Below, one piece after another: positions 43,185 to 56,461 of a DNA stretch of 64,000 nt; within the stretch, counting starts at the first letter, position 1, and each line of letters starts with the position of its first letter. Made by a program: the position numbers and the translations under genes. The stretch comes from Thermococcus thioreducens (GTDB lineage Archaea; Methanobacteriota_B; Thermococci; Thermococcales; Thermococcaceae). The stretch is from assembly GCF_002214545.1 (NCBI RefSeq), contig NZ_CP015105.1:124001-188000 (forward strand). The letters are read 5' to 3'. The notes beneath the pieces were generated by a model. The model saw nothing but the letters and a program-made list of their open reading frames with translations, made no database searches and was not told the origin of the DNA.

Positions 43185-44069
43185 ATGAAGCGAGGCTACA
43201 TTTTCGTTTTTCTAGCCGCCTCCATGTGGGGGACTCTGGGCATATTCGCCAAGTACCTTGACGGTTTTGGATTAACGCCCTTCACGATGGTGTTCTACAG
43301 GGTTTTCTTCGCCATAGTCCTCCTGGCACTGTATCTCCGCCTCAGGGGCATAGATTTCTCCCTTGAGCGCTCCCGCCTCAGATTCTACGCCCTCTACGGC
43401 TTCTTCAGCATCTTCCTATTTTACACCCTCTACTTCTACACGGTAACGATATCGTCGGTTTCATTTGCCGTTCTGCTCCTCTATACTGCCCCGGTATATT
43501 CAATAGTCCTCGGCAGGCTGGTCTTCAACGAGCCGTTGGTGAGGGAGAAGGTCACCGCCCTGGGAATGGTTATGCTTGGCGTTCTCCTTGTGAACTGGGG
43601 GGATGTGCGGTTTTCCACAAAGGCTCTGCTCTTCGGACTGCTGACGGGTTTAACCTACGCACTTTACGGTGTTCTGGCGAAGTTCGCCGTTAGGGACGAC
43701 GAGCCCGAGAAAGCGCTCTTCTACACGCTCCTCTTCGGCATGATTTACCTCCTTCCGTTCACGGCCTTCTCGGTGCCCTCGGGCGCCCTTCCTTACCTCT
43801 TTGCCCTGGCGTTCTTCCCGACATTCTTGGGCTACATACTCTACAACCACGCCCTAAAGGAGATTGAGGTGAGCAGGGCCAGCATAGTCGCCACGATTGA
43901 ACCTGTCGTGGCGATAGCACTGGCGTTCCTTTTATTTGGTGAGTCCCTTACGGCCAAACAGCTGGTTGGAGCGGCTCTCATAATTGGGGGTTCTGCCCTG
44001 GTGCATCTAAAAGAGGAAGAAAAGCCGGAAGAGAGCATTATTGAAGAGGTGCTCGAAGAGGTTCATTAG
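43185..44069 (+). CDS. DMT-superfamily (EamA) transporter
   Basis: 294 residues with ten predicted helices in two EamA repeats (about 5-135 and 148-280) and an acidic C-terminal tail. Drug/metabolite transporter family; substrate unknown. GAGGTGGGTTC precedes ATG 43185, nine bases after nadE. Its stop overlaps the converging glnA stop by four bases. Confidence 0.88.
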   Translation: MKRGYIFVFLAASMWGTLGIFAKYLDGFGLTPFTMVFYRVFFAIVLLALYLRLRGIDFSLERSRLRFYALYGFFSIFLFYTLYFYTVTISSVSFAVLLLYTAPVYSIVLGRLVFNEPLVREKVTALGMVMLGVLLVNWGDVRFSTKALLFGLLTGLTYALYGVLAKFAVRDDEPEKALFYTLLFGMIYLLPFTAFSVPSGALPYLFALAFFPTFLGYILYNHALKEIEVSRASIVATIEPVVAIALAFLLFGESLTAKQLVGAALIIGGSALVHLKEEEKPEESIIEEVLEEVH

Positions 44070-45397
44070 ACGTGGAAGTACCTCTCCAGCTCCCATTCAG
44101 TAACCTTCTTCGTATCCTCGGGAAGACCCTTAGCGCCCAGGTATTCGAGATACCCCTCCCACTCACGCTCCTTGTATGCTATGAAGTTCCTGTATGCACC
44201 GCCCAGGGCTTCCCTGACGACCCCGTCCTTCTTGAGTTCCTCCAAGGCTTCGCCAAGGCTTTCAGGTAGTGTGTCTATGCCCAGGCTTTTCCGCTTGGAA
44301 TCGCCCATCTCATAGACGTTTTCCTCAACATACGCGTCGGGCTCGATTTTTCTCCTTATTCCGTCCAGCCCGGCCATCAGTATCGCTGCAAATGCCAGGT
44401 ATGGGTTGGCACTCGGATCGGGACAGCGGTACTCTATCCTGGCACCGTTGCCCCAGAAGGCCGGAACCCTTATCAGCGCACTTCTGTTCCTGTAGCCCCA
44501 GCTTATGTATACCGGGGCCTCGTAGCCCGGGACGAGACGCTTGTAGCTGTTCACAGTGGGGTTGGTTACTGCTGTCAGGGCCTTTGCGTGGGCGAGTATA
44601 CCCCCTACGAAGTAAAGTGCGGTCTCGCTGAGCCCTTCATCACCAATAAATGCGTTCTCCCCGTCTTTCCAGAGGCTTATGTGGAGGTGCATTCCGTTTC
44701 CGGGAAAGCCGTAGAGGGGCTTTGGCATGAACGTGGCGTAGAGCCCGTGCATCTCCGATATAGCCTTTACGATGTACTTGAAGCTGACTATGTTGTCTGC
44801 CGTCCTTAGGGCTTCATCATAGCGGAAGTCTATCTCGTGCTGTGCCTTCCCAACCTCGTGGTGGAGAACCTCGGGAACGAGTCCGAGGGCCGGCATGTGG
44901 AGCGCTATCTCCCTCTTTAACTCCCTGGCCCTGTCAAGGGTCACGAGGTCAAAATAACCACCGCTGTCGGGTATCTGGAGCTCCCAGGAACCGTTCTTCT
45001 TGAAGAGGTAGAACTCCGGTTCCGGCCCTATGTACGCCCTGAATCCGGCCTTTTCGAGTTCTTCAAGGGCACCCCTGAGGACACCTCTGGGGTCGGCTGG
45101 ATAGGGCTTTCTGCCCTTGTATATATATCCATAGACCCTTGAAATTCCTTCCCATGGTATCTCCGCGTAGGCTGATGGGTCCGCTTTGAATATCAAGTCG
45201 CTGTCCTCTATCCCTTCAAATCCTGGGATTGAGGAGCCGTCAAAGGCTATGCCGTCTTCTATGGCCTCGTCGTATCTCCCTATGGGAACTTCCATGCCTT
45301 TTGGAACTCCGTTAATGTCCACGAAAATAAGCTGGATAAATTTCACCTTCTTGGGTTCGAAGAGGGTTCCCTTTTCTGACGCGCTCAAACTGTTCAT
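44066..45397 (-). CDS. glnA: Glutamine synthetase type I
   Basis: 443 residues. Condenses glutamate and ammonia with ATP. Beta-grasp domain with FDGSSIPGF (52-60), catalytic domain with GPEPEFYLF, NGMHLHIS, and the arginine segments near NRSALIRVP. No adenylylation loop tyrosine region of the I-beta class, so the I-alpha form. ATG 45397 follows AGGTGATAA; GTG 45406 lies inside that site. Likely TATA element on the minus strand at 45459-45469, leaving a leader of about 35-40 bases. Confidence 0.95.
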   Translation of the reverse strand: MNSLSASEKGTLFEPKKVKFIQLIFVDINGVPKGMEVPIGRYDEAIEDGIAFDGSSIPGFEGIEDSDLIFKADPSAYAEIPWEGISRVYGYIYKGRKPYPADPRGVLRGALEELEKAGFRAYIGPEPEFYLFKKNGSWELQIPDSGGYFDLVTLDRARELKREIALHMPALGLVPEVLHHEVGKAQHEIDFRYDEALRTADNIVSFKYIVKAISEMHGLYATFMPKPLYGFPGNGMHLHISLWKDGENAFIGDEGLSETALYFVGGILAHAKALTAVTNPTVNSYKRLVPGYEAPVYISWGYRNRSALIRVPAFWGNGARIEYRCPDPSANPYLAFAAILMAGLDGIRRKIEPDAYVEENVYEMGDSKRKSLGIDTLPESLGEALEELKKDGVVREALGGAYRNFIAYKEREWEGYLEYLGAKGLPEDTKKVTEWELERYFHV

Positions 45398-45483
45398 ATT
45401 TATCACCTATTATTGCTCTAATGTTCAGTGTTTATGCCATCTTATTGAACGATTATTCCAATAAAAGCCTTTTTACTGGATTT

Positions 45484-47972: not shown

Positions 47973-47982
47973 ACTTTTTTAT
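47973..47982 (+). promoter_or_regulatory. TATA box of RNase P RNA
   Basis: ACTTTTTTAT is centred about 28 bases before the first base of helix P1, directly after the surface-protein stop codon. Confidence 0.6.
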
Positions 47983-48004: not shown

Positions 48005-48330
48005 AGGCGAGGGGGTTGGGGGCCCTCGGGGTGCTCCCGAGGAAGTTCCGCCCACCGCACCGGGGCCGCGGTGCCGCAAGGCACCTCCCGAGAGGGAGGG
48101 CAACGGCGCAGAAACGACACGTCCCGGCGGATATGGGGATGAAAGCGGCGAAGGGCCCGGCGACGGTGCCCGAGCTAACCCGCAGACGACCCGTCGGGGA
48201 GCGGTGAAACGGCCGTCCCGCGGGGTGCAAGGCCGAGGGAGGGGCGATGAGTTCCCGGTGGGAGCCCCGTGGTAGGCCGCTCAGTCGAATGCTCCCTTGA
48301 GACAGAAGGCGGGCTACGACCCCCTCGCCT
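48005..48330 (+). ncRNA. rnpB: RNase P RNA (archaeal type A)
   Basis: Catalytic RNA that trims the 5' leader of tRNA precursors. Boundaries come from helix P1: AGGCGAGGGGG (48005-48015) pairs perfectly with CCCCCTCGCCT (48320-48330). Universal blocks are present: GAGGAAGTTCCGCCC (48039-48053), CAGAAACGACAC (48109-48120), GGATGAAAGCGGCGAA near 48135, and GACAGAAGGCGGGC (48301-48314). P4 forms between CCGCC (48048-48052) and GGCGG (48308-48312). GC content is far above the neighbouring genes, as expected for a structural RNA in a hyperthermophile. Protein-like open frames here are spurious. Confidence 0.95.
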
Positions 48331-49162
48331 TAATATCCAGCAGGGATGCGAGGAGTATCAGGGCCCCTCCGAGTGCTGTTCTAACCCCTGGAACCTCTCC
48401 GAATATCAGAAACGCATAGACCACCGCGCTCATGGGGTCGAGGTAGCTCAGCAGAGCCGCCTCGTTGACCTCAACCTCCTTCAGCCCGTCCATGTACAGG
48501 AAGAGTGCCAGTACTGTGTGAACGCTCACAAGGATAAAAACCGCCCACCAGGCGGGCTCTCCAACGCCCGATGCGGCAATGAACGGCGCTAAAACAACCG
48601 ACGCCACGGCGAGCTGGAGGAAGGTCAGGGTCTTCCCGTCCACATCGCGCAGAAACCGTCCGAGGTTTGGAATCAGCGAATAGAAGAAGGCCGCTATTAG
48701 AGCGAGCAAGATTCCAACGAAGTCGCTGTTTCCAAGGTCGACATCCTGTCCGCTCATTATCAGGATGAGCCCTGCAAAGGCGGTCCCTATCAGGAGCCAC
48801 CTTTTCATTCTTAGGTTCTCCCCGAGGAACCTCCACGAGATGAGGGTCGCTACTATCGGAGCCATGTAATAGACGAGAACCGCGTTTGCTATGGTGGTGT
48901 AGCTGAACGCCGTGAAGAGGAAGACCCAGTTTAAAGCCAGAGAAACCCCCAGAGCAAGGAGGGGCTTCCATTTAGCCCCCACAATCGAAAAAAGAGATGA
49001 CGCCCACCCCTTACTGCTGGCCAGAATGGGAAACAGTAGCAACGCCCCAAGTGACACCCTGAAGAAAGCGACCCCTAAGCCGGACAGGTTTGAGAAGCGG
49101 GCGAATATTCCAACGCTCCCCCAGATGAGCATTGAAATTATGATTTTCAGCCTTCCGTTCAC
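48314..49162 (-). CDS. DMT-superfamily (EamA) transporter
   Basis: 282 residues, ten predicted helices in two EamA repeats, substrate unknown. Distinct from the EamA protein at 43 kb. It starts within the priS stop (ATGA overlap), so it is translated with the DNA primase genes. Its last codons (KARGS and stop) lie antisense to the 3' strand of RNase P helix P1 (17-base overlap). Confidence 0.88.
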   Translation of the reverse strand: MNGRLKIIISMLIWGSVGIFARFSNLSGLGVAFFRVSLGALLLFPILASSKGWASSLFSIVGAKWKPLLALGVSLALNWVFLFTAFSYTTIANAVLVYYMAPIVATLISWRFLGENLRMKRWLLIGTAFAGLILIMSGQDVDLGNSDFVGILLALIAAFFYSLIPNLGRFLRDVDGKTLTFLQLAVASVVLAPFIAASGVGEPAWWAVFILVSVHTVLALFLYMDGLKEVEVNEAALLSYLDPMSAVVYAFLIFGEVPGVRTALGGALILLASLLDIKARGS

Positions 49163-50232
49163 ATCTCATCCCCGTGCTCTTCCACCCATTCCTCGTAGGC
49201 TTCCCTGACCTCTTCCTTCCTGAACCCGGGAACTGCATCCTTGAAGGGGTTGAACCTTTCGAGCTTTTTCTCGCTTGGGCCGATGTAAGTTGCTATAAGC
49301 CCTACCTTGGAATGAAGGCTTGACGGCAGGCGAAGGATTCTTTTGACGTCAACCGTAACGCGGCCGTCGAAGTAGGCCTTTGAGAAGGTGCTCGATGCAT
49401 TAAGGAGTATCATTAGACCGCTTCTTTTTTTGCCTTTTCTGGGAGGTCTTTTAAGGGAACTGGGAAAAGAGACATTGGGGGACTTTGCGTTTAGTACAAA
49501 TTCCTGATAGATTTTTTCTTTGTTTTCAATGGTATCCTGGATCTGCCGGGGACTCAATCCAAAGTTCTCCAAGTGGCTTTTGCTAATTCTTTTTATAAAG
49601 TATCCAAATCTCAACCGAAATACTCGGTAGTAGCCGGAAGAGAGCATTATCATATTACTGTCAATATCCCTTTTATAGTTTAGCTCCTCCGCAGCACTGA
49701 TGTATGCCAGTATCTTCTCCCTTGCCTTTCCATCGAGCCTTAACGCCCACTCATCGAGAACCCTTATGTGGTAACCCCTCCCCGAATAAACGACGTGAAC
49801 GTTCTCAAAGCCGAAGTCTTCCTTTAGGATTATCAGAGTGTCCCTTGCGAGCTCTTTGGCGTCCTCCAGGCATATCGGACACACCTGCCCGTGCTCGTGG
49901 AGGTGAGCACATCTTCTCAGGGGCAAATCTTTCGCGTCTATGTCGAAGACAAGTTCAGCTCCCAGCCAGCCGCTCATATCCTTGGGCTCTTCGTAGAGGG
50001 CAACCGAAGAATAGATTGCGTAGGGGGCAGTAGCCCTCACATAGTCTTCCAGGTCGCGGACGTCCATGAAAACGTTCTTTCTGTCGTTCGGTCCCTCTCC
50101 GGTGTGGTCAAACCCAAACTCCCTCTCCTCAAGGGTTCTGACTATAAACTCTGGGAGTTTTTTGGCGCTCCATTCCTTTGAATAGTAGTGCTTCCGCTCC
50201 CTTTCGGTAACTTCTCTAAACAGCTCAGCCAT
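49159..50232 (-). CDS. priS: DNA primase catalytic (small) subunit
   Basis: 357 residues. Makes RNA/DNA primers for replication. Catalytic carboxylates D97 and D99 (VFDIDAKD), zinc ligands around C108, H110/H114, C118 and C121, and a third acidic site in RVTVDVKRILRLP. The helical insertion (about 190-300) is present but diverges strongly from Pyrococcus PriS and is encoded by AT-rich DNA (49381-49680). GGTGGTGAGA precedes ATG 50232. Overlaps the end of priL by eight bases. Confidence 0.93.
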   Translation of the reverse strand: MAELFREVTERERKHYYSKEWSAKKLPEFIVRTLEEREFGFDHTGEGPNDRKNVFMDVRDLEDYVRATAPYAIYSSVALYEEPKDMSGWLGAELVFDIDAKDLPLRRCAHLHEHGQVCPICLEDAKELARDTLIILKEDFGFENVHVVYSGRGYHIRVLDEWALRLDGKAREKILAYISAAEELNYKRDIDSNMIMLSSGYYRVFRLRFGYFIKRISKSHLENFGLSPRQIQDTIENKEKIYQEFVLNAKSPNVSFPSSLKRPPRKGKKRSGLMILLNASSTFSKAYFDGRVTVDVKRILRLPSSLHSKVGLIATYIGPSEKKLERFNPFKDAVPGFRKEEVREAYEEWVEEHGDEM

Positions 50233-51430
50233 TCTCACCACCCTCTGTGCTCTGCTTGCCCTTTCTGCTCTCGATATAGAGGCGCCTCAGGTAGTACGTC
50301 AGTGGATTTTTGATGTTCCTGCAGTGCCTGTCCGGCTTGCAGAGCTGGGGAGCGTTTGCCCGTATCTTGGAGCAGTTCGGCGGGAAGTACCACGTGGAGT
50401 TTCCGCTGTCCTCCAGGCGGGGTTTGTCCGTAAGACCGAAGCCGAGATGGTACCAGATGTTCTTGACCTCGTGTGGCTGGTCTTCGAAGAGGGGAGGGGA
50501 GCAACGGTTGCCTGCCTCGATTATGACCGGCAGTATTTCCTTCTCGACCACGCTCAGGTCACCCACGCAGTCCCGTATTCTGACGTCCCTCCTGGATGGG
50601 CTTGGGCACAGCCTCGCGTAGCTGAGGAAACTCGTAAGGAGAACAGTTATGGCGTAGTTCCTCAGGCCTGCGGGAACACCCCCAAGGGCGATTTTCACGC
50701 ATGGGGGGAAGAGTTCAAAGCGCAGTAGCCCTGCCTCTGCTGAACCCATCCTCTCAAGCCTTTCTTTGAAGTATTCCCTCGCTATCTCACCCAGCCTTTC
50801 GTAGAGCTGGAGGTAGTAGCTTGGTAGCTCATCCCTTACCTCGTAGAGGAGATTCACTGCCCTCTCAAAGTTCCTTTCAAATGATTTCTCCCAGAGCTTT
50901 AGCGCTTGCTCCGTGGTCAGGTAGACGTATCCCTCCCTAATGTACACCTCTTTGAGGCTTCCCTCCCACAGTTCCAGGAACTTTCCAAGATGTATCTTGT
51001 ACCTCAACCTCAGCTTGTCCCTCTCATCAGGTGGAAGTTCGTGGTGATGGGTTCTTTCGAGTATCGTTCTGTCTCGTGAGGGTATCTCTCCAGCATCAAC
51101 CGTTCTCAGCTCGGTTGCGGTTCCGCTTATCCTTCCTGCTCTCCTAAGCCTCTTGGCATATATCCTTGAGTTTGCTTCCTTTACGAGCTCCATCTCGATG
51201 CCGTATGGGGAAAACGCAAGGGCACCAAGGAGCGCATAAAACGTCAGCAAATCCTGAATATCACCCATCTCAAGGAGGTCTCTTGGCATTTCGCCCGACT
51301 TTACCCATAAAACCCTTTCCAAAGCCTGGTCTATCCCAACGTAGGACGGGATTATTAACAGTAATTCCGTTATTCCACCAAATTCCTCCTTCACGAGCCT
51401 TTTGGCTTTATCACTGAAAGGATCAAGCAT
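50225..51430 (-). CDS. priL: DNA primase large subunit
   Basis: 401 residues. Binds template and regulates PriS; the C-terminal domain holds a 4Fe-4S cluster. Candidate cysteine ligands lie in FPPCVKIAL, NRCSPPL, PPNCSKI and QLCKPDRHC. ATG 51430 follows GAGGTGAAGCC. TATA candidate GATATATAA at 51493-51502 (minus strand). First gene of priL-priS-EamA. Confidence 0.93.
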   Translation of the reverse strand: MLDPFSDKAKRLVKEEFGGITELLLIIPSYVGIDQALERVLWVKSGEMPRDLLEMGDIQDLLTFYALLGALAFSPYGIEMELVKEANSRIYAKRLRRAGRISGTATELRTVDAGEIPSRDRTILERTHHHELPPDERDKLRLRYKIHLGKFLELWEGSLKEVYIREGYVYLTTEQALKLWEKSFERNFERAVNLLYEVRDELPSYYLQLYERLGEIAREYFKERLERMGSAEAGLLRFELFPPCVKIALGGVPAGLRNYAITVLLTSFLSYARLCPSPSRRDVRIRDCVGDLSVVEKEILPVIIEAGNRCSPPLFEDQPHEVKNIWYHLGFGLTDKPRLEDSGNSTWYFPPNCSKIRANAPQLCKPDRHCRNIKNPLTYYLRRLYIESRKGKQSTEGGENG

Positions 51431-51710
51431 GGCTTCACCTCTCACCGATAAGTGGACTTTGGGGCATAAAACGGTTTCCGTGATGTTCATGGATTATATA
51501 TCCTCCCGTTTGAGCATTCGCCAGAAAGCCTTAGAGCGGTCGTTTATGGCAGTTGTGACCCATAATAACGTAAACTCCCGAACAATCCCTCAGCCATATT
51601 GATTTTAAGTGGAGTGACCACTTGAACCCCAAAAGTTTTATATCCTTTTGGTTCCACATGTTATATTAGATGGAAAGAGAGAGTTTGCAAAGATTTCATG
51701 GGTGATTTGG
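51431..51710. promoter_or_regulatory. Divergent region between priL and the KaiC-like gene
   Basis: 280 bases with the priL TATA box on the left and, on the right, two adjacent dyads: AAGTGG-AGTGA-CCACTT (51607-51623) and CCAAAAG-TTTTATATC-CTTTTGG (51629-51651). The second encloses the TATA box TTTTATAT of the KaiC-like gene. No gene seen between. Confidence 0.55.
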
Positions 51711-56380: not shown

Positions 56381-56461
56381 GTTTGGGGGACGATGAGGAG
56401 AAAGCACCTCCTCTGAAACCGGCGTGAGTGATGAGACGCCCACGGTCCGAGTCCCTAAACA
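56381..56461 (+). ncRNA. Candidate structured small RNA, C/D-box-like
   Basis: Starts right after the RlmI-like stop. Outer stem: GTTTGGGGG (56381-56389) with TCCCTAAAC (56452-56460), nine pairs including two G-U. Inside: C-like box ACGATGA (56390-56396), CTGA as D' (56413-56416), GTGATGA as C' (56428-56434), CCGA as D-like box (56447-56450). The C'-to-D distance is exactly 12 bases as in archaeal C/D guides; C-to-D' is 16. Competing hairpins GAGGAG/CTCCTC (56395-56413) and GGCGT/ACGCC (56421-56440) are possible. Two boxes deviate by one base from consensus, so the class is uncertain. Confidence 0.5.

Follow-up and report, generated by a model that had tools for sequence, protein, structure and literature searches.

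The gene of an EamA/DMT-family transporter and the gene of the RNase P RNA (rnpB), which converge in the 64,000-nucleotide stretch of Thermococcus thioreducens DNA analysed here (the window), overlap tail to tail, and the stop codon of the transporter is the antisense of a CTA triplet conserved in the RNA. RNase P is a tRNA-cutting ribozyme, and the Thermococcaceae are heat-loving archaea. The junction recurs in this family, with stop codons at a few fixed positions and a forced protein C-terminus, and elsewhere among the archaea unrelated genes end on the same triplet. Such an overlap between a protein gene and a structural RNA gene very probably results from genome compaction, rnpB being the immovable partner and providing a ready-made stop codon on its antisense strand; both this history and the absence of a function for the overlap are what we infer from the arrangement. 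The first-pass annotation had noticed the overlap from one sequence, and its observation holds, with a wider reach than that sequence could reveal.

Any protein gene packed against this highly conserved RNA gene thus receives both its stop codon and its last residues from the RNA, and the locus provides a clean natural test case of RNA/protein gene overlap, the RNA being invariant and the protein end free. It also calls for caution among annotators and experimenters, as a deletion strain in which the 3' end of EamA or PriS is trimmed or recoded would have a damaged RNase P RNA. No description of this rnpB overlap was found in the titles and abstract openings of the literature searched, most of it outside subscription journals.

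Anatomy of the Junction

The rnpB gene occupies positions 48007-48328 of the plus strand and matches the archaeal RNase P RNA family of Rfam (RF00373) over the whole model (1-288) with 183.3 bits (E 7.6e-53), the gathering score being 84. A putative TATA-like promoter element read from the sequence (TTTTTTAT, 47975-47982, plus strand) lies about 24 nt before helix P1, whose 5' strand (48006-48018, plus) forms 13 pairs with its 3' strand (48317-48329, plus). The RNA itself is ordinary, and shares with RF00373 the full-length match, P1 and the conserved GGCUUA/GGGCUA segment; the added point is that the conserved UUA or CUA reads TAA or TAG on the opposite strand.

On that strand, the transporter gene is an open reading frame of 282 amino acids at 48314-49162 (minus, GTG start as called), whose product belongs to the EamA/DMT transporters according to two stretches of PF00892 (E 3.9e-37; 128 bits against a cut-off of 28.2). 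The protein ends in ...LLDIKARGS, and the TAG that follows (48316-48314, minus) lies exactly opposite the CTA that is conserved in rnpB directly before P1. The 3' strand of P1 is antisense to codons -1 to -4 of EamA and to the third base of codon -5, and it lies wholly within the EamA reading frame, as had been claimed. The antisense relation of the last five codons and the stop codon to rnpB also stands, although the span given for it, 48314-48330, must be corrected to 48314-48331, that is, 18 nt rather than 17. Measured against the Rfam span of rnpB, the two opposite-strand 3' ends share 15 nt (48314-48328). Two genes for primase subunits precede EamA on the minus strand, priS (small subunit, 49159-50241; PF01896, E 1.8e-15) and priL (large subunit, 50225-51490; PF04104, E 3e-27), and the short overlaps between these open reading frames as called, 4 nt for priS/EamA and 17 nt for priL/priS, bear out the proposed operon-like order priL-priS-EamA.

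Conservation of Helix P1 and of the CTA Triplet

Helix P1 was indexed on the rnpB ends of 86 relatives, i.e., the 88 loci without G052 and G091, whose ends are cut or doubtful. Each of its 13 pairs is canonical in 84-86 of these 86 Thermococcaceae, with two-sided changes at several pairs, and one of them lies beyond the Rfam end of rnpB. These data bear on the trivial explanation that the overlap is an illusion of annotation, either because EamA or PriS truly ends at another place or because Rfam sets the end of rnpB too far downstream. The ends of EamA, PriS and rnpB are indeed predictions from sequence here, but the EamA frame is open to its stop codon, with homology to the last residues in relatives, and the canonical pairing of P1 extends even past the Rfam end, which makes an illusion extremely unlikely.

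The triplet at the site of the EamA stop codon is CTA in 87/87 Thermococcaceae rnpB genes. It is CTA or TTA in 9/10 other members of the class and in 38 of 40 further archaea, which were drawn from 175 more distant genomes and represent 27 families, with full-length matches near the top of the list; the two exceptions among the 40 are a triplet displaced by one base (G203) and a missing one (G220). As the CTA and most of P1 are equally fixed in genomes without any overlapping gene, it is the RNA and not the protein that sets them.

Recurrence in the Thermococcaceae

Among 94 Thermococcaceae genomes, 90 had an rnpB match and 88 loci were read, two (G046 and G063) being left out because contig ends cut them. 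EamA or PriS adjoins rnpB in 79 of the 88 loci. Of the other nine, seven have rnpB truly apart (G001, G002, G004, G006, G012, G033, and G093), and in G052 and G091 the neighbor is missing owing to contig ends, so that they were not counted as apart. We take G024 to be T. kodakarensis, G026 T. onnurineus, G004 P. abyssi, G006 P. horikoshii, and genus g3 Pyrococcus. The convergent order rnpB-EamA-priS is therefore kept across most of the family, rather than differing in all close relatives. A genome contig search returned five loci, two of them from Thermococcus.

The stop codon of the neighbor lies between -1 and +15 nt of the rnpB end in 72/79 loci, positive values denoting positions inside rnpB, and the comparison with related genomes that had been proposed as a check thus shows the overlap to recur, 37 genomes having the exact same TAG. 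The classes are +15 (37 loci; 31 EamA, 6 PriS), +4 (13), 0 (5), -1 (17; 16 EamA, 1 PriS), and elsewhere (7). The last class comprises broken or truncated EamA genes (G056, G060, and G064), the more distant PriS of G015, G049, and G088, and G082, whose apparent stop at +47 was rejected as it comes from a mis-chosen frame, the true EamA-like frame ending at -1. Four of the 31 EamA rows at +15 (G018, G023, G029, and G057) give fragmented matches, and these genes are disrupted or doubtful.

These classes match the stop codons that the antisense of rnpB offers. In frame 0, a TAG from the CTA occurs at 15 nt in 87/87 complete rnpB genes (the cut gene of G052 left out). In frame 1, only the 16 genomes whose P1 strand is CTCAC have a stop at 4 nt, the others reaching one after 46-154 nt or running to the end, and frame 2 has none before 29 nt; save for the 16 genomes with a TGA at +4, the two non-zero frames run for 29-272 nt or through rnpB. 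All 13 genomes with a gene ending at +4 carry the TGA in P1. Because of this match, the neighbor can be said to end at the first stop of its frame at the edge of the ribozyme.

Where EamA is missing, PriS itself enters P1 at +15, as in G021, G035, and four genomes of genus g3 (G005, G007, G009, and G011), or priS abuts rnpB at -1, as in G008. The stop class has switched at least seven times according to an EamA tree of 59 rows, built without the last residues, and 14 times according to a PriS tree with 74 labeled rows. These counts are approximate, as the two trees are quick, partly conflicting ones with many open forks; both leave out G056, G060, G064, G082, and G088.

Several loci have peculiarities of their own. 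The rnpB-adjacent EamA is broken by frameshifts, stop codons or deletions in several Thermococcus-like genomes (G018, G029, G057, G060, G056, and G064; loci L036, L080, L079, L083, L094, and L069), while a distant paralogue of EamA, located about 5 kb from it, has an open frame in many. In G049, a deletion took most of EamA and left its last codons (LLASALDVLRR) as a fossil tail between priS and rnpB (L073). In G076, EamA is split by about 0.9 kb of extra DNA, possibly an insertion element, with the matches to residues 106-280 and 1-113 lying apart (L012, downstream of rnpB). Finally, G040 and G017 (L052 and L057), whose EamA tail is ASALDLIWARGS, pair on the EamA tree and are separate on the PriS tree, a discrepancy that suggests recombination of the EamA-rnpB block between species.

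The Imposed C-Terminus

In the 37 genomes with a stop codon at +15, the residues before the TAG are Ala (37), Arg (37), and Gly (37), then Ser (27), Pro (5), or Leu (5). The ending ARG[S/P/L]-TAG is thus common to the unrelated EamA (31) and PriS (6) proteins. The Ala, Arg, and Gly codons show only two substitutions, GGG to GGA and AGG to AGA, neither of which alters the residue. Codon -5, which encodes Lys in the window, encodes eight different residues in the 37 genomes, its third base G alone being held by P1. The claim that selection on P1 fixes the C-terminus KARGS therefore holds for Ala, Arg, and Gly in 37/37 genomes, must be relaxed to Ser, Pro, or Leu for the last residue, and fails for Lys. 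These observations support the view that the C-terminus is set by P1 together with the CTA next to it, with the ribozyme leading and the protein following. In a PDB look-up for a Pyrococcus-like PriS, the alignment with solved relatives reaches only as far as the last few residues, which speaks neither for nor against the ARGL ending.

Unrelated Genes at rnpB in Other Archaea

Outside the family, ten other genomes of the class were read. In G094, a PhoU/TrkA_C gene converges with rnpB and ends at +15; in G095-G100, PcrB-type genes end at 0 or -1 (Pfam was run on G097 only), a convergent open reading frame ends at -3 in G101, and FrhB ends at -5 in G102. No convergent neighbor was found at rnpB in G103.

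Convergent genes end exactly on the triplet in 4 of the 40 more distant archaea, namely Endo_dU (G215), Flavoprotein (G201), and Ribo_biogen_C, the latter at +15 in G112 and at +16, on the same triplet, in G203. Other ends supported by Pfam are those of DUF116 (+2, G159), DnaJ (-5, G240), SBP_bac_3/PAS (-5, G247), and Ribo_biogen_C (-9, G125). In the remaining genomes of the 40, convergent open reading frames of at least 90 amino acids with an end between -10 and +60 were missing or not observed; two short antisense open reading frames ending in rnpB (G137 at +6 and G220 at +9) had no Pfam match and were discounted. Altogether, the same ribozyme triplet serves as the stop codon for at least six unrelated families, EamA, PriS, PhoU/TrkA_C, Endo_dU, Flavoprotein, and Ribo_biogen_C.

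A Ribo_biogen_C-type gene (RLI/Tsr3-like) is a neighbor of rnpB in archaea of five families (six genomes), convergently at L182, L189, L184, L187, and L202 and on the same strand at L176; it was identified by Pfam (PF04034) in G112, G203, and G125 and by eye in G253, G226, and G172. RNase P RNA and ribosome-biogenesis genes form a recurring neighborhood.

Possible Transcription across the Junction

An EamA mRNA that includes its stop codon carries about 16 nt complementary to the 3' strand of P1 and the CTA, and possible read-through of the priL-priS-EamA operon would yield a putative antisense transcript across rnpB. It had been proposed on this basis that replication-operon transcription could be linked with tRNA processing, and such a link would matter far more than a passive overlap. 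In this reading, primase-EamA transcripts would cross rnpB, pair or interfere with the RNase P RNA, and tie tRNA processing to the transcription of replication genes. It can draw on the complementarity itself, on the gene order kept in most of the family, and on a simple duplex model at 85°C, in which pairing of the EamA mRNA with the P1 strand amounts to -14.2 kcal/mol, vs. -9.9 kcal/mol for P1; the stronger predicted duplex argues for a possibility only, as P1 forms within one molecule. The lack of any T5 run on the minus strand for 2375 nt past the EamA stop codon could also speak for it.

Several lines of evidence nevertheless disfavor such a coupling. EamA is often broken or deleted, PriS takes its place, rnpB lies apart from priS in 7/88 loci, the slot is filled by unrelated genes in other archaea, and overlaps are routine in this genome (see below); the locus does not behave as the conserved functional unit of a cis-antisense RNase P regulator. 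T-runs do not favor it either. A T-run scan found no U-tract near the junction for either transcript, with no T5 run on the plus strand for 937 nt past rnpB, but 67 of 132 convergent gene ends of the genome also lack a T5 run within 450 nt; because this is so common, the missing run is uninformative about termination. In the same control, 27/132 convergent gene ends have a T5 run within 50 nt, compared with about 5% of random positions. Similarly, 538 of 897 3' ends mapped by Term-seq in P. furiosus have no robust poly(U) signal (PMC10746257). A terminator-like stem at 48541-48557 (minus strand, in EamA) was set aside, the pattern scan having found two such elements where 1.1 were expected.

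The primary transcriptome of T. kodakarensis offers a comparison. The available part of that report confirms the RNase P RNA, describes antisense RNAs to six tRNAs and 329 antisense transcripts at the 3' ends of open reading frames, and makes no mention of an antisense RNA to the RNase P RNA, the method being one that maps starts and not read-through (PMC4247193). The likeness lies in the close relationship and in the frequency of antisense RNAs over 3' termini. Those RNAs, however, have mapped starts (PMC4247193), while at the EamA-rnpB locus read-through is a possibility only. Taken together, these data make the cis-antisense coupling very unlikely. It is very unlikely, too, that selection maintains the overlap as a device for reciprocal antisense pairing, in which the message of EamA (of PriS in Pyrococcus-like genomes) would end in a 16-nt complement of the P1 strand, and vice versa. 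Were it real, transcription of the primase operon could modulate the folding or the amount of RNase P at high temperature, and the C-G or U-A pair of P1 would be expected to co-evolve with the stop codon of the neighbor. Regulation is neither needed nor supported as a reading of the overlap, and passive constraint is favored.

The overlap might instead be kept for the sake of rnpB, if the formation of its 3' end made use of the convergent coding region, for instance of a U-tract stemming from Lys or Glu codons, in a shared 3' end. The +4 class, mostly from genus g4, has a mean T-run of 4.0 in the 40 nt past rnpB vs. 2.7 further downstream, and the DNA just past rnpB is also T-rich in the outgroup PcrB genes. 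In contrast, the +15 class, window included, is not enriched, with 1.8 vs. 2.1 in control coding DNA (31 EamA rows), and in the window the first T5 run past rnpB lies 937 nt away, which leaves this explanation very unlikely.

Probable Compaction against the Ribozyme

The preferred reading, compaction, would operate as follows. rnpB cannot yield, P1 and the preceding CTA/UUA being fixed by ribozyme function, and the end of the convergent neighbor would thus slide, through deletions and losses of stop codons, up to rnpB and then a few bases into it. The new stop codon would be the first one available in the frame of the neighbor. One frame would always supply the TAG or TAA opposite the conserved CTA or TTA (+15); another would supply the TGA within P1 (+4), open only where a P1 pair is U-A rather than C-G; in the third, the stop codon would be forced to the rnpB end or just outside (0 or -1). 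Any protein arriving there, EamA here and PriS elsewhere, would then have its last residues fixed by the overlap, and these residues need not matter to the protein.

Convergent overlaps between prokaryotic genes have been described as arising by displacement of stop codons (PMC4161906). The rnpB overlap resembles them in that a stop codon is lost or moved and the next one in frame lies inside the neighbor, as well as in being short and evolutionarily plastic (PMC4161906). It differs in that the neighbor is a catalytic RNA, so that base pairing and the conservation of the ribozyme, not codons, constrain the overlapped letters, and in that one triplet is reused by unrelated genes.

To estimate how frequent such overlaps are, genes were called from codon usage alone in 464 kb of this genome, by a simple procedure whose calls are crude. 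Since 22 of the 66 convergent pairs overlap, an overlap of the rnpB type is not commoner than expected for the genome and, as such, represents no more than chance; 18/66 pairs fall between -15 and +1, and 31/66 have a gap of at most 5 nt. What is out of the ordinary is that one stop codon recurs, among relatives as well as in genes of unrelated families, and the recurrence at one point comes partly from shared descent. Two observations sit less easily with compaction. The 72/79 stops within 16 nt are tighter than the genome-wide spread (31/66 within 5 nt), although these rows are related and not independent, and although EamA can be dispensed with, most of the 94-genome family retains the rnpB-EamA-priS order, so that the neighborhood may bring some benefit.

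The 464 kb contain seven tRNA genes, none overlapped by a called gene, a number too small for comparison. Within the window, the EamA paralogue (43185-44069, plus) and its convergent neighbor (44066-45406, minus) share 4 nt, as is ordinary for convergent genes, and a further RNA gene, that of the C/D box guide RNA sR43, is found at 56388-56452 (Rfam RF01128, 70 bits).
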